Shown here: piece by piece, positions 4,792 to 10,394 of the stretch
Numbering within the stretch: position 1 is the stretch's first letter
Layout of the letters: the number at the start of each line of letters is the position of its first letter
Source: Helicobacteraceae bacterium
GTDB taxonomy: Bacteria; Campylobacterota; Campylobacteria; Campylobacterales; SZUA-545
DNA: 41,421 nucleotides
Reading direction: 5' to 3'
NCBI GenBank assembly: GCA_031286325.1
Contig: JAITUT010000020.1
Location: forward strand, 1 to 41,421
Position numbers and translations under genes: made by a program
Notes under the pieces: generated by a model
The model's input: only the letters and a program-made list of their open reading frames with translations
Told to the model about the DNA's origin: nothing
The model's database searches: none

Positions 4792-4798
4792 ATTTTTG

Positions 4799-6550
4799 GT
4801 GAAAATTCGCTTTGAGAGGTTTCTGAAAACGCTCGCCAATGTGTTTGGCAAAACGCCGTCCGCGGGCAGTTATGTTTTTATTCTTTTGATCGCGCTTTGG
4901 AGCGCGACAGCGTTAAATATCCCGTTTTATGATTATGTTGCCGATAATTTCTCGATCAGGAGTCTAAAAGCTCTTGTGTTTGTGTGTACGCTTCCATTTT
5001 TCTTTTTCGCGGTATCATTGCTGATCGTTAATTTGTTGTTTTTGCCTTATATAGGCAAAGCGATCTTCGCGCTATTAACTATTATCTCCGCCGTTGCGGG
5101 ATATTATATGATGACATTCGGTATTTTGATAGACGCGGATATGATTCAAAATGTATTTGAAACATCTAAAAGAGAGGCGTTTGATCTAATTACTTTTCCT
5201 TTTGCGATCCGGGTTATGTTTCTTGGTGTAATTCCCGCTATTTTAATACTTGTTTTCAAAGTGAAATTTCTCCCGTTAAAATACGAATTGATATTGCGCG
5301 GAGTTTTCTTTATATCCTCGTTAATAATTATCGGGTTTTCCGCGCTTGTATCTTTTCGCAGTTACGCTGATTTCAGAAAAGAACATAAAGAGCAATTACC
5401 CAAAATTATTACCCCGATTAATTATGTATATCACACGGCAAAATATATTCAGCGGATTAGGTTGTTGAATAAAGAGCTACATATTTTAGACGCGGACGCG
5501 AAATTTAACGGCGAAAGAAATGTTAGCCAAGAACATAAAGTTTTGGTAATAATGATCGGCGAAACTTCGCGCGCGGCGAATTTTCAGTTAGGCGGATACG
5601 ATCGCGAGACTAATCCAAAGTTAACCGCTCTTTCCGATTTAGTTTATTTCAAAAATACCTCGTCGTGCGCCACCGCTACTGGGGTCTCCGTGCCTTGTAT
5701 GTTTTCGTATTTTGAGCGGAAAAACTTTGATATAACAGACGCGAAATTCACGGAAAATATAATAGATTTGGCAAATAAAACAGGCTATAAAGTAATATGG
5801 AAAAACAACAACGACGACTGCAAAGGAGTATGCGATCGCGTGATGGCGGGGGGGGGAATTATCAATGTAAAAGAATTGAATTTTTCGGCTGATTATTGCG
5901 ATAAAGATTATTGTTTTGACGGCATATTTTTGCGCGATTTCGCCGATGAATTGAAAGCTGTTGATCGCGATACGATTTTTGTCTTTCATACGATAGGATC
6001 GCACGGACCGAAATACTATAAAAGATACCCCGACAAATTTAGAGTTTTCAAACCCACTTGCGATACCGCGCAGATACACGATTGCGATCGTGAAAGTTTA
6101 ATAAACACTTACGATAATACAATTTATTACGCCGATTTTGTAATTGAAAGCGTTATTGACGCGCTAGACGACGCGCAAAACTTGCAATCCGCGTTAATTT
6201 ACGCGAGCGATCACGGCGAAAGTTTAGGGGAAGCGGCAAGCTTCTATAAACGTCAGATCGCGGCGAGCATTAAAGGTCAAGCCAGCAGTAGCAAATCCAG
6301 CGGTATTTATCTGCACGGAATGCCGTATACAATCGCGCCGGAAGAGCAGATAAAAGTTCCTATGCTTTTGTGGTTAGACAACGATTTTCTTAACGCTGAA
6401 AAAATCGATCTAAATTGCCTGCAAACAAACGCTAAAACGGGCGAGTTTTCACACGATTTTCTATTTCATTCGCTATTGACATTGTTGGATATAGAAACCA
6501 AACTCTACAAAAGCGAACTGGATTTCATCGCGCCTTGCAAAAAGAGATAA
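4799..6550 (+). CDS. eptA: Phosphoethanolamine transferase (EptA/EptC type), contains a G9 tract
   Basis: An inner-membrane enzyme of about 583 residues that moves phosphoethanolamine from phosphatidylethanolamine to lipid A or other surface targets. Five N-terminal membrane segments (about 25-190) precede a periplasmic sulfatase-fold domain. GETSRA carries the nucleophilic Thr (about residue 256), followed by GGYDRETNP, SCATATGVSVPCM, NNNDDCKGVCDRV, HTIGSHGPKYYKRYP and SDHGESLGE with the metal ligands. The ending (H-G-P then IKVPMLLWL) is intact. The start is GTG at 4799, with a TTG one codon earlier. A run of nine G (5848-5856) encodes MAGGG inside the domain and is in frame here; slippage would abolish the product. 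In Campylobacter the homologue also modifies the flagellar rod. A second paralogue lies at 28669-30418. Confidence 0.93.
   Translation: MKIRFERFLKTLANVFGKTPSAGSYVFILLIALWSATALNIPFYDYVADNFSIRSLKALVFVCTLPFFFFAVSLLIVNLLFLPYIGKAIFALLTIISAVAGYYMMTFGILIDADMIQNVFETSKREAFDLITFPFAIRVMFLGVIPAILILVFKVKFLPLKYELILRGVFFISSLIIIGFSALVSFRSYADFRKEHKEQLPKIITPINYVYHTAKYIQRIRLLNKELHILDADAKFNGERNVSQEHKVLVIMIGETSRAANFQLGGYDRETNPKLTALSDLVYFKNTSSCATATGVSVPCMFSYFERKNFDITDAKFTENIIDLANKTGYKVIWKNNNDDCKGVCDRVMAGGGIINVKELNFSADYCDKDYCFDGIFLRDFADELKAVDRDTIFVFHTIGSHGPKYYKRYPDKFRVFKPTCDTAQIHDCDRESLINTYDNTIYYADFVIESVIDALDDAQNLQSALIYASDHGESLGEAASFYKRQIAASIKGQASSSKSSGIYLHGMPYTIAPEEQIKVPMLLWLDNDFLNAEKIDLNCLQTNAKTGEFSHDFLFHSLLTLLDIETKLYKSELDFIAPCKKR
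5848..5856 (+). repeat. Homopolymeric G9 tract within eptA
   Basis: Nine consecutive G, in frame as assembled. Poly-G tracts of this length are typical phase-variation sites in Campylobacter and Helicobacter. Confidence 0.75.
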
Positions 6551-6559
6551 TGAAACGCG

Positions 6560-8029
6560 CTAATTTTTCCGCGTCCTTTCCGCTTGCGCCAGCCCAAGCT
6601 CTACGCTCAAACCATCGCGCATTACGATAAATTTCGCCAGCCGCGTCTTGCCCAACAACTCTTGAAACTGCGAAAGGCTAGCGATATCAATCCCCTCCGC
6701 TTGCACGATCACGTCTGCGGGCATAAAGCCGCTCTGCGCCGCGAGCGAATCGGCGTCAACATTCGTGATCACAACCCCCGCGGAAACTTCGCCGATCTTC
6801 AAGCGTTCTTTTAATGTCGGCGTCAATGTCTCTAGAGCCATTCCGTAGTGGTAGAGCGACTTTGAGGCGGCGCGCTCAACGCCCTCCATTCGCCCGACGC
6901 GCATCGCCGTTTCGCCGAGTCTGCGATCTCTGATATACATAATCACGATCTCTTTGCCTGCAGGCATCGCCGAGACGATTCGCTCAAAATCCGCCACGCT
7001 CGCAATGATCAAACTATCCGCCAGCAGCAACAGATCGCCGCGCTTGATTCCCGCGATCTCAGAGGGCGAGTACGCCTCCACCGCCGTAACGATCACCCCC
7101 TCCTCGCGCGAGTAATAGCTCTTCATCTCTTGCGTCAAATCCGCGACCGCTACGCCCAGCCACGCCTCTCTCGCGTTGCCGTATCTCTCAATGCGCTCCG
7201 CCACCGACTTCACGCGGTCAATCGGCAGGAAAAATCCGCCCTGCGGCTCGCGCGCGCTCATTCCGCGCAGGCGCACGGGCACGCCCAGCACTTCGCCCGC
7301 GCTGTTAATAATCGCGCCGCCGATGTTGCCGCCGTGGATAAATAGGTCGCTTTGCACTATTTTTTCATCATCGTTTTGTTTGCCGACGTTTGAGATCACG
7401 CCCATTGAGACGACAGGCTCGAGTCCTAATGGATTGCCGATCGCGAATACCAGATCGCCCGCCTCTAACCTCGACGGATCGCCGAATTTAGGCTCTTGCA
7501 AATGTTTTGCGACCACGCGCAAAACGGCGAGTCCAGTAGCGTGATCCTCGCCCAAAATTTCGGCGTCCAGCGGTTCGGGGTAATTTGGCGCCACGACTTT
7601 GATCGCGGTGCGATTTTCAATAAAGCGCGCGCTCGTTACGATGAGTCCCGTATCCGAAACGATCGTGCCGCTGCCTAGTGATCGGCGCAGTTTTTGGCTC
7701 GTCAAGCCCAGTTGCGGGTATAAAAAATAGGGGCGAAACCACGAATCTTCGGCGAATGGCGTGCCAATTCTGCTTTGGGTGTCGGTCGCGGTCATAATAT
7801 AGACCACGCTTTTTGAAGCGATCTCAATTATGGGGGCGAAACTCGCGGGTACATTTGATTGCGGTTGCCCGAATAGCATTTGGTTCGCCGTCGGCGGCTT
7901 CAAAGACTCGCCGTCAATCTCCATAGGTTTTACGGCTCTCGCCTCCGCCGACTCTTCCGCCGCGTTCGCCGCCGCTCCTAAAACCGCCGCTATGATAAAA
8001 ATTGCGCAAAAAAATATGAAATTTTTCAT
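6560..8029 (-). CDS. Catalytically dead HtrA/DegQ homologue (pseudoprotease) with two PDZ domains
   Basis: A 489-residue periplasmic protein with a signal peptide (MKNFIFFCAIFIIAAVLGAAANA) and the complete DegP/HtrA plan: trypsin-like domain (about 65-285), PDZ1 (about 290-380) and PDZ2 (about 395-485). The alignment to HtrA is clear (GSGTIVSD, GDLVFAIGNPLG, GFFLPIDRVK), but the whole triad is replaced. His of TNNHV is R135 (TSARF), Asp of SDLAV is G166 (TGLAV), and Ser of GNSGGA is I236 (GNIGGA). There is no stop or frameshift, so the fold appears to be kept. It may act as a chaperone or scaffold, since HtrA proteins have protease-independent chaperone activity. The stop lies 9 bp from that of eptA (convergent). 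No active HtrA is present in this window. Confidence 0.9.
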   Translation of the reverse strand: MKNFIFFCAIFIIAAVLGAAANAAEESAEARAVKPMEIDGESLKPPTANQMLFGQPQSNVPASFAPIIEIASKSVVYIMTATDTQSRIGTPFAEDSWFRPYFLYPQLGLTSQKLRRSLGSGTIVSDTGLIVTSARFIENRTAIKVVAPNYPEPLDAEILGEDHATGLAVLRVVAKHLQEPKFGDPSRLEAGDLVFAIGNPLGLEPVVSMGVISNVGKQNDDEKIVQSDLFIHGGNIGGAIINSAGEVLGVPVRLRGMSAREPQGGFFLPIDRVKSVAERIERYGNAREAWLGVAVADLTQEMKSYYSREEGVIVTAVEAYSPSEIAGIKRGDLLLLADSLIIASVADFERIVSAMPAGKEIVIMYIRDRRLGETAMRVGRMEGVERAASKSLYHYGMALETLTPTLKERLKIGEVSAGVVITNVDADSLAAQSGFMPADVIVQAEGIDIASLSQFQELLGKTRLAKFIVMRDGLSVELGLAQAERTRKN

Positions 8030-8209: not shown

Positions 8210-8923
8210 CTACAATACCCCTTGAATTCGGCGCAAGACCTCTTCGTAAGCGACTTTCACGCCGCCCAAATCTTGGCGGAAGCGATCTTTGTCAAGTTTT
8301 TCGCCGCTTTTGGCGTCCCAAAAACGGCACGAATCGGGGCTGATCTCGTCCGCTAGCAGGAGTTTGCCCCCCGCGTTATGATCGCGCCCGAACTCCACTT
8401 TGAAGTCAATTAAATTCAACCCGACTTTCGCGAAAAACGGCAATAGAATCTCGTTAATTTTCCGCGCTTTTTGCTTCAAAATCTCTATCTCTTTCGCGTT
8501 GCAAAGTTTCATTAAGAGCGCGTGATCGTCATTTAATATCGGATCGCCCAAATCGTCATTTTTGTAGTAAAACTCTACGAGGGTGAAGTCCAGTTTCGTT
8601 CCCTCGGCGATGCCAAGCCGCTTAGTGAGACTGCCAGTGGCGACATTTCGCACTACAACCTCAATCGGCACGATCTCAACTTTTTTGACCAAATGGCGCG
8701 TTTCGTCAAGCGGTTTAATAAGGTGCGTTTCGACGCCGTTTTCGGCGAGCAAGCCGAAAAGTTTCGCGCTGATCGCGGCGTTTAACGCGCCTTTGCCCGC
8801 TTCTTGCGACTTTTTCTGCGCGTTAAACGCCGTCAAATCGTCCTTAAATTCGGCGACGAGCTCGCTCGCGTTCTCGGTCGCGAAGAGTTTTTTGCCTTTG
8901 CCCTCATAGATCAACTCATTCAT
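8210..8923 (-). CDS. purC: Phosphoribosylaminoimidazole-succinocarboxamide synthase
   Basis: A 237-residue SAICAR synthetase, which joins aspartate to CAIR in purine synthesis using ATP. Family motifs are visible: YEGKGKKLF at the N-terminus (ATP site), [27 protein letters not shown] and [21 protein letters not shown] lies upstream of the ATG. It is downstream of ctpA on the same strand, separated by about 170 bp, an order also known in Campylobacter. Confidence 0.95.
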
Positions 8924-9095: not shown

Positions 9096-10394
9096 CTAAT
9101 TCTTTAGCGCGATCAAACCGCGCAAAATCCCGAACGCGCTCTTTAATTGATAGTCGTTGCTGAGCTGCTCCTCCGTGATCGTGTTCGCGGCGACTTTTTC
9201 TTCTTTAGGCGGCTTGTTTTCAAGTTCGCCAAGCTTCGCTTGCAAATGATCTTTTAACTGCGACTCTTTGATCTCAAAGTCGTCATTGACCTCTTTGACG
9301 GCGACGCGCTTAATTTCAACATCGGGCGTTACGCCAGTAGCTTGGATTGATCGCCCGCTGGGCAGATAATAGCGCGCCACGGTGAGTTTGATCGCGTCTC
9401 CCTCTTCGCCCTCAAGGCGCATTACGATCTGGACGCTGCCTTTGCCGAATGTTTTTTCGCCCACGATCACGGCGCGGTGGTGATCTTGCAACGCGCCGCT
9501 GACGATTTCGCTCGCGCTCGCGCTGCCGCCGTTTACGAGAACCACAAGCGGAATGTCTAGGATCGTGCCGCTTTTCGTGGCGTTGAATACCTCGTTTTCG
9601 TCCTCTACGCGCCCTTTTTGCGAGACGATCACGCCTTTATCCACGAAGAGATCAACAGTTCCGACAGCCTCGCTCAGAAGTCCGCCCGGATTGTTGCGCA
9701 GATCGAGCGCGATGCCGCGCGCTTTGCCTTTTTGCAAGTTAATTTCGCGCCGCAAAGAATCTACGACATTTTTGTCAAAAGTCGCGATCCGCAAATACAA
9801 AATATCGTCTTTATAAATTTTGGCATAAACCGATTGGACTTTGATAATATCGCGCACGATCGGCGTTTCAAAGGGCTTTTCTTTGCCTTTTCTAACGATC
9901 GTGAGGCGCACGCTGGTTTTCGGTTTGCCGCGCATTAGCTCAACGGCTTCGTCAATGCTCATTCCGATCGTGCTTTTGTCGTCGATTTTCAGAATTATGT
10001 CGCCGCTCTCAATCCCCGCTTTGTCCGCAGGAGTGCCCTCCATAGGCGCTATTACGGTCAAAGCGCCGTCTCGCATACCTACGGTAATTCCAAGCCCGCC
10101 AAACTCGCCCTTGGTCTTGATCTCCATCTCTTTGTTTTGCTTTGCGTCCAAATACGCCGAGTGCGAGTCAAGGTTGGTGAGCATTCCGTCCAGCGCTTTT
10201 CTAATTATTTCGTCGATTTTCACGGGATCAACATAGTAATTTTCCACCGCGTTTACGACTTTCGTAAATTTCTTAAACGCCGCGATCCGCGTAGCTTCGT
10301 TGCTCGCGCTCTTTGCCTCCAATGTGGAGTAGAGCGTGAGCGACGCCACTCCCGCGATCAAAAATGACGCCAAAATAACCGGGTATCTCTTCAT
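9096..10394 (-). CDS. ctpA: Carboxyl-terminal processing protease (S41)
   Basis: A 432-residue periplasmic serine protease. An N-terminal signal or anchor (residues 5-28) is followed by a helical region, a PDZ domain (about 95-170; GGLGITVGMRDGALTV) and the S41 domain. The Ser/Lys dyad is S293 in GGSASASE and K318 in TFGKG, so the enzyme should be active. Substrates are usually C-termini of envelope proteins or muropeptide-hydrolase partners. The ATG follows TGGAG, and a TACAAT -10 lies in the 90-bp gap shared with the divergent glgB. Confidence 0.93.
   Translation of the reverse strand: MKRYPVILASFLIAGVASLTLYSTLEAKSASNEATRIAAFKKFTKVVNAVENYYVDPVKIDEIIRKALDGMLTNLDSHSAYLDAKQNKEMEIKTKGEFGGLGITVGMRDGALTVIAPMEGTPADKAGIESGDIILKIDDKSTIGMSIDEAVELMRGKPKTSVRLTIVRKGKEKPFETPIVRDIIKVQSVYAKIYKDDILYLRIATFDKNVVDSLRREINLQKGKARGIALDLRNNPGGLLSEAVGTVDLFVDKGVIVSQKGRVEDENEVFNATKSGTILDIPLVVLVNGGSASASEIVSGALQDHHRAVIVGEKTFGKGSVQIVMRLEGEEGDAIKLTVARYYLPSGRSIQATGVTPDVEIKRVAVKEVNDDFEIKESQLKDHLQAKLGELENKPPKEEKVAANTITEEQLSNDYQLKSAFGILRGLIALKN

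Follow-up and report, generated by a model that had tools for sequence, protein, structure and literature searches.

Proteins of the HtrA family can act as chaperone or as protease and change from one role to the other. The locus described here raises the question of what such a protein is kept for when all three catalytic residues have been replaced. It lies in the window, i.e., the whole stretch of 41,421 nucleotides that was analysed, which is one contig from the draft genome of a Helicobacteraceae bacterium (2.05 Mb, 98% complete). We call the product pseudo-HtrA. The gene, its domains and its neighbours are as follows:

6560..8029, minus strand: pseudo-HtrA gene, 489 aa, ATG start (ORF, Pfam and NCBIfam)
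7961..8029, minus strand: residues 1-23, predicted to be a signal peptide from the hydrophobic core and ANA/AE site seen by inspection
7685..7759, minus strand: LA-loop region, residues 91-115 (PFAEDSWFRPYFLYPQLGLTSQKLR), several residues invariant only within the pseudo-HtrA clade
7280..7675, minus strand: Trypsin_2 domain, residues 119-250, catalytically dead (Pfam and model)
7625..7627, minus strand: catalytic His replaced by Arg (codon 135, CGC)
7532..7534, minus strand: catalytic Asp replaced by Gly (codon 166, GGA)
7322..7324, minus strand: nucleophile Ser replaced by Ile (codon 236, ATC)
6917..7159, minus strand: PDZ1, residues 291-371 (Pfam), adjoining AWLG carboxylate-binding motif kept
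6653..6772, minus strand: PDZ2 core, residues 420-459 (Pfam)
8210..8923, minus strand: purC (SAICAR synthetase), upstream of pseudo-HtrA on the same strand
9096..10394, minus strand: ctpA-type S41 PDZ protease, farther upstream on the same strand
4796..6550, plus strand: EptA-type phosphoethanolamine transferase, convergent with pseudo-HtrA

The pseudo-HtrA frame lies on the minus strand and, as an earlier note on this DNA had read it, is intact over 489 codons, with no internal stop; reading the plus strand at 6560-8029 gives stops. The signal peptide, protease fold and two PDZ domains claimed in that note were likewise recovered, the first by inspection and the others from Pfam and a structure model. 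The AlphaFold2 monomer model, built from 22 sequences, reached a mean pLDDT of 80 and superseded a model from nine sequences (pLDDT 62). It has the HtrA fold, with an N-terminal helix in the predicted signal-peptide region. DegQ and DegP were its best Foldseek matches, DegS and HtrA were also matched, and TM-scores were about 0.7 (target length) for DegS and MucD, each compared over its protease-PDZ1 part. By sequence, the best PDB match was 6z05 (Campylobacter jejuni HtrA), and the best NCBIfam match was TIGR02037 (Do/DegP/HtrA), at 256.5 bits, under the curated cut-off of 416.2. Automatic naming could label the protein a serine endoprotease, a point of caution for annotators. A promoter and terminator scan gave no signal above shuffles. 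The EptA-type ORF carries a TTG start in the mechanical listing and directly follows an M23 peptidase gene.

Pseudo-HtrA thus shares the signal peptide, trypsin-like domain and two PDZ domains of the Do/DegP/HtrA family (TIGR02037; MEROPS S1C; e.g., 6z05 and Helicobacter pylori 7xs0), but lacks the Ser nucleophile, the His and, in the window copy, the Asp. Alignment showed that the catalytic motifs TNNH, KSDLAV and GNSGG have become TSAR, ATGLAV and GNIGG in the window copy, which bears out the reading of R135, G166 and I236 at the His, Asp and Ser positions. The His (CAC) to Arg and Ser (AGC) to Ile changes each take one base, again as proposed; Asp to GGA takes two. The pocket loops differ from the family as well (NPGNSGG to HGGNIGG and GINSAI to GVPVRL).

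Are these replacements peculiar to one genome? We found nine orthologues, 45-56% identical overall, in genera g1, g2 and g4 of a single Campylobacterales family (f1). They scored 726-815 bits against the pseudo-HtrA profile, compared with at most 346 bits for all other HtrAs in 299 Campylobacterales genomes. As scores above 700 bits occurred in f1 genomes only, a widespread Campylobacterales family was rejected, and a profile search of 347 added genomes of the phylum yielded no further orthologues. A plasmid origin was also rejected, the matches being DegQ proteins at about 30% identity only. The f1 genomes are fragmented drafts, and nine orthologues are a small set. The bacteria that carry pseudo-HtrA are taken to come from termite guts, the sample code Kf353 elsewhere denoting the termite Kalotermes flavicollis. 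In one further genome (G005), a 49-residue remnant lies at a contig edge (L015:3-149) without homology upstream, a truncated gene or a misassembly.

The orthologues share the loss of the triad in part. Ile occupies the Ser position in all nine, and Arg or Lys the His position in eight (His is present in G007). The Asp, however, is kept in seven of nine, with Gly in the window copy and G010, and the full R/G/I combination is limited to two orthologues, the window copy and L016. The note had asked whether R/G/I is shared; the orthologues share the loss of the nucleophile and largely that of the His, but not that of the Asp. In the control set of HtrAs from Campylobacterales, which includes the active copy of the window genome, H-D-S and the oxyanion Gly were intact in all 68 fetched sequences (54 distinct cores). 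Because all controls are intact and the Ser-to-Ile change is common to nine orthologues, the loss of the triad goes beyond chance. Isolated decay or a sequencing error was rejected, since Ile236 and a basic residue at position 135 recur among the orthologues. On an economical reading of the alignment, the nucleophile would have been lost first and then the His, with the Asp drifting last; the root of the clade is poorly resolved in the tree.

The changes extend beyond the triad. Nine residues that do not vary among 32 aligned active HtrAs have been lost in pseudo-HtrA (Y129, N133, H135, T227, A229, N232, P233, S236 and N251), and they cluster around the active site and the substrate pocket. 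Retained are the oxyanion Gly234 and the W-L-G of PDZ1. New invariants specific to the clade have appeared in the LA-loop region (W97, P100, Y101, P105, L107, K113 and R115).

To quantify selection, we compared the closest pair of orthologues, G004 and G003. Over the whole gene, dS was 0.20, dN 0.026 and omega 0.13 (Fisher p ~1e-19), so that neutrality is refuted. In the dead protease part alone omega was 0.07, with 7.5 nonsynonymous against 30.5 synonymous differences (Fisher p ~1e-12). For the same pair, neighbouring genes gave omega values of 0.06 to 0.29. More distant g1 pairs gave 0.21-0.27 for pseudo-HtrA versus 0.11-0.15 for active HtrA, values that are approximate because dS is near or above 1. 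Across the same eight species, mean amino acid identity of the protease domain was 0.60 in pseudo-HtrA versus 0.82 in active HtrA, that of PDZ1 was 0.63 in both, and that of PDZ2 was 0.47 versus 0.57. A codon model (MG+F3X4, kappa fixed at 1; omegas approximate owing to deep divergences) gave 0.19 versus 0.07 for the protease domain and 0.10 versus 0.15 for PDZ1. Pseudo-HtrA has lost the constraint specific to catalysis, but its fold and PDZ1 are still constrained; the protease domain is relaxed but far from neutral.

Such relaxation, together with the truncated G005 remnant and an eroded copy in G014 (see below), is what one would expect if a redundant HtrA copy were slowly decaying under residual constraint. 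A pseudogene should show a neutral rate or a broken frame, and we observed neither: omega is 0.13 for the closest pair and far below 1 in every domain, the frames are intact in nine genomes, and the clade has invariants of its own, including Ile236. We therefore consider decay very improbable. That pseudo-HtrA is non-proteolytic and under selection, as the earlier note had suspected, is well supported by the shared Ile and the low dN/dS.

The note had also recommended a search for an active HtrA in the genome. The sole other HtrA match lies at C1:3425-4810 and is 33% identical to pseudo-HtrA. It has intact TNNH, SDLAV and GNSGG motifs and scores 465 bits, above the family cut-off, indicating that the cell also owns an ordinary HtrA. 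Active and dead copies coexist in eight of the nine genomes with pseudo-HtrA; G003, a fragmented MAG, has no visible active copy.

This coexistence is compatible with pseudo-HtrA being a regulatory partner that forms mixed oligomers with the cell's own active HtrA or tunes it allosterically. The two paralogues are only about 33% identical, however, and W97, P100, Y101, K113 and R115 have diverged as a block in the LA loop. These residues lie near the subunit contacts of DegP, which argues for self-assembly of pseudo-HtrA. The functional model for a regulatory partner is MamO, which acts in this way for MamE: active/inactive HtrA pairing arose repeatedly in magnetotactic bacteria, and MamE-dependent proteolysis needs MamO (PMC4794232). 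Yet activation of MamE by MamO requires the TauE transporter domain (PMC4794232), which pseudo-HtrA lacks. Other genera of f1 likewise have an active HtrA together with a second copy that is compromised. We regard a regulatory partner as the main rival reading, though on balance an unlikely one.

MamO and the inactive MamE copies are nonetheless the nearest described case, being likewise HtrA-derived pseudoproteases with a degenerate triad that arose by duplication and stand beside an active HtrA (PMC4794232). Pseudo-HtrA differs in that it carries PDZ2 at its C-terminus instead of a TauE domain, keeps the oxyanion Gly, lacks the conserved His pair that forms the di-histidine metal site of MamO, and is of independent origin in Campylobacterales. 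A metal-binding pseudoprotease of the MamO type might be suggested by the broadly similar history of the two proteins, each an HtrA whose triad has degenerated. This proposal is largely refuted and is the least probable of all those considered: none of the nine orthologues' His or Cys residues is invariant, TauE is missing, and MamP, the only magnetosome gene looked for, had no match above the cut-off in the window genome, which to that extent gives no sign of magnetotaxis. A suspected degenerate HtrA in family f7 (G176) proved to have an intact triad.

The gene neighbourhood offers a different clue. Neighbouring genes were named by eye from translations, and GGDEF/EAL domains were taken from Pfam. 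In G007 and G009 the order is folD-(lepB)-M50 protease-rsmH-(ftsL-like)-GGDEF/EAL, followed by pseudo-HtrA. Pseudo-HtrA follows ftsL-like-EAL in G002, EAL in G006 and a decayed EAL gene in G001. The EAL gene is therefore directly upstream, adjacent or overlapping, in four genomes and decayed in a fifth (five of nine). In the window genome it lies behind rsmH-ftsL on contig C92, and pseudo-HtrA is on another contig, downstream of ctpA-purC. Within f1, a GGDEF/EAL protein is inserted after rsmH-ftsL at L129:6747-8081, L130:7984-9300, L131:8219-9553, L132:2795-4099 and L135:3892-5214; in other f1 genomes the gene is decayed or lost. An ancestral, order-wide slot after rsmH-ftsL was rejected, because outside f1 an RND transporter gene is most often found there.

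Relocation in G002 and G006 has not separated the EAL gene from pseudo-HtrA, as might be expected if both belonged to one pathway, e.g., a periplasmic module tied to c-di-GMP or to envelope or division control. Nevertheless, the EAL protein looks cytoplasmic from its sequence, Pfam showing only GGDEF and EAL. A close EAL orthologue at E <= 1e-60 was not found in G001, G003, G004 or G005, and G010 has a weak, paralogue-level match only. Since the orthologue is missing from G001, G003 and G004, pseudo-HtrA can persist without the EAL gene; it is intact in these three genomes and in G010, and the two genes are on separate contigs in the window genome. A joint pathway is thus improbable in our estimation.

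Other genera of f1 also carry a second HtrA. In G008 and G012 it adjoins kdsA (L022:1444-2766 and L028:554-1873). These copies belong to the same family, and the tree joins them to the pseudo-HtrAs (94/84), although the branches are long and, according to a warning from the program, may have been joined falsely. They differ by a different neighbourhood and by keeping H-D-S. Because their oxyanion Gly is replaced by Leu or Ala (HPLTSGG, HPATSGG), they may also be inactive. An origin from a general kdsA-linked gene was rejected, unrelated genes being found upstream of kdsA in other families with a readable upstream ORF. In G014, the gene after folD-lepB-M50-rsmH-ftsL-like (L137:4853-6028) encodes a protein that has two PDZ domains and an N-terminal half in which a protease can no longer be recognised; this protein is probably an eroded HtrA. 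In other families, G098 (L186, L187) and G225 (L188, L189) have two HtrA copies each with all triads intact, hence duplication alone does not imply loss of the triad.

Second HtrA copies across f1 thus appear repeatedly compromised at the active site, be it after one duplication or several. Tentatively, and with more doubt than confidence, we suggest that f1 keeps a standing active/inactive HtrA pair, the second copy having been disabled in at least three ways that differ between genera: loss of the triad, replacement of the oxyanion Gly, and erosion of the protease domain. If true, selection for an HtrA dedicated to non-proteolytic work would have occurred here independently, outside the magnetosome context, and this HtrA might serve the active one as a regulatory subunit.

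What, then, is pseudo-HtrA kept for? The earlier note had named a chaperone, a substrate adaptor or a decoy regulator. The sequence does not decide among these; we rank a chaperone or scaffold first. A duplicated HtrA would have lost proteolysis and been retained for its non-catalytic half. The protein would be exported to the periplasm and, like HtrA proteins, would probably be trimeric. PDZ1 would bind exposed or C-terminal peptides of periplasmic clients, and pseudo-HtrA would act as a chaperone or scaffold in cooperation with the active HtrA. The shared loss of the triad, purifying selection, the retained PDZ1 motif, the lost pocket residues and the fold model all support this reading. Furthermore, protease-dead HtrA retains biological function as a chaperone in two members of the same order, C. 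jejuni (PMC3260087) and H. pylori (PMC6892219). These are laboratory point mutants of the same scaffold, whereas pseudo-HtrA occurs naturally as a second gene and carries many changes besides. Counted against a chaperone or scaffold are the EAL neighbour conserved in five of nine genomes, which hints at a more specific pathway role, the fast-evolving PDZ2 and the G005 remnant, which indicates that pseudo-HtrA may not be indispensable. Taking both sides together, we give a dedicated non-proteolytic PDZ chaperone or scaffold, working beside the active HtrA, about an even chance of being correct.

HtrA pseudoproteases are already known as a kind. In a survey from 2008 that covered 966 prokaryotic serine proteases of five families, 42 were inactive homologues (PMC2605481). 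In the open-licence literature, we found no bacterial HtrA pseudoprotease outside the magnetosome system. Pseudo-HtrA thus extends the pairing of active and inactive HtrA from magnetotactic bacteria, the sole case in that literature, to another lineage and habitat. Whether cells gain from splitting the chaperone and protease jobs is usually studied with mutants engineered at the active site; with a protease-dead HtrA that occurs naturally, is under selection and stands next to an active copy, this division of labour can be tested.
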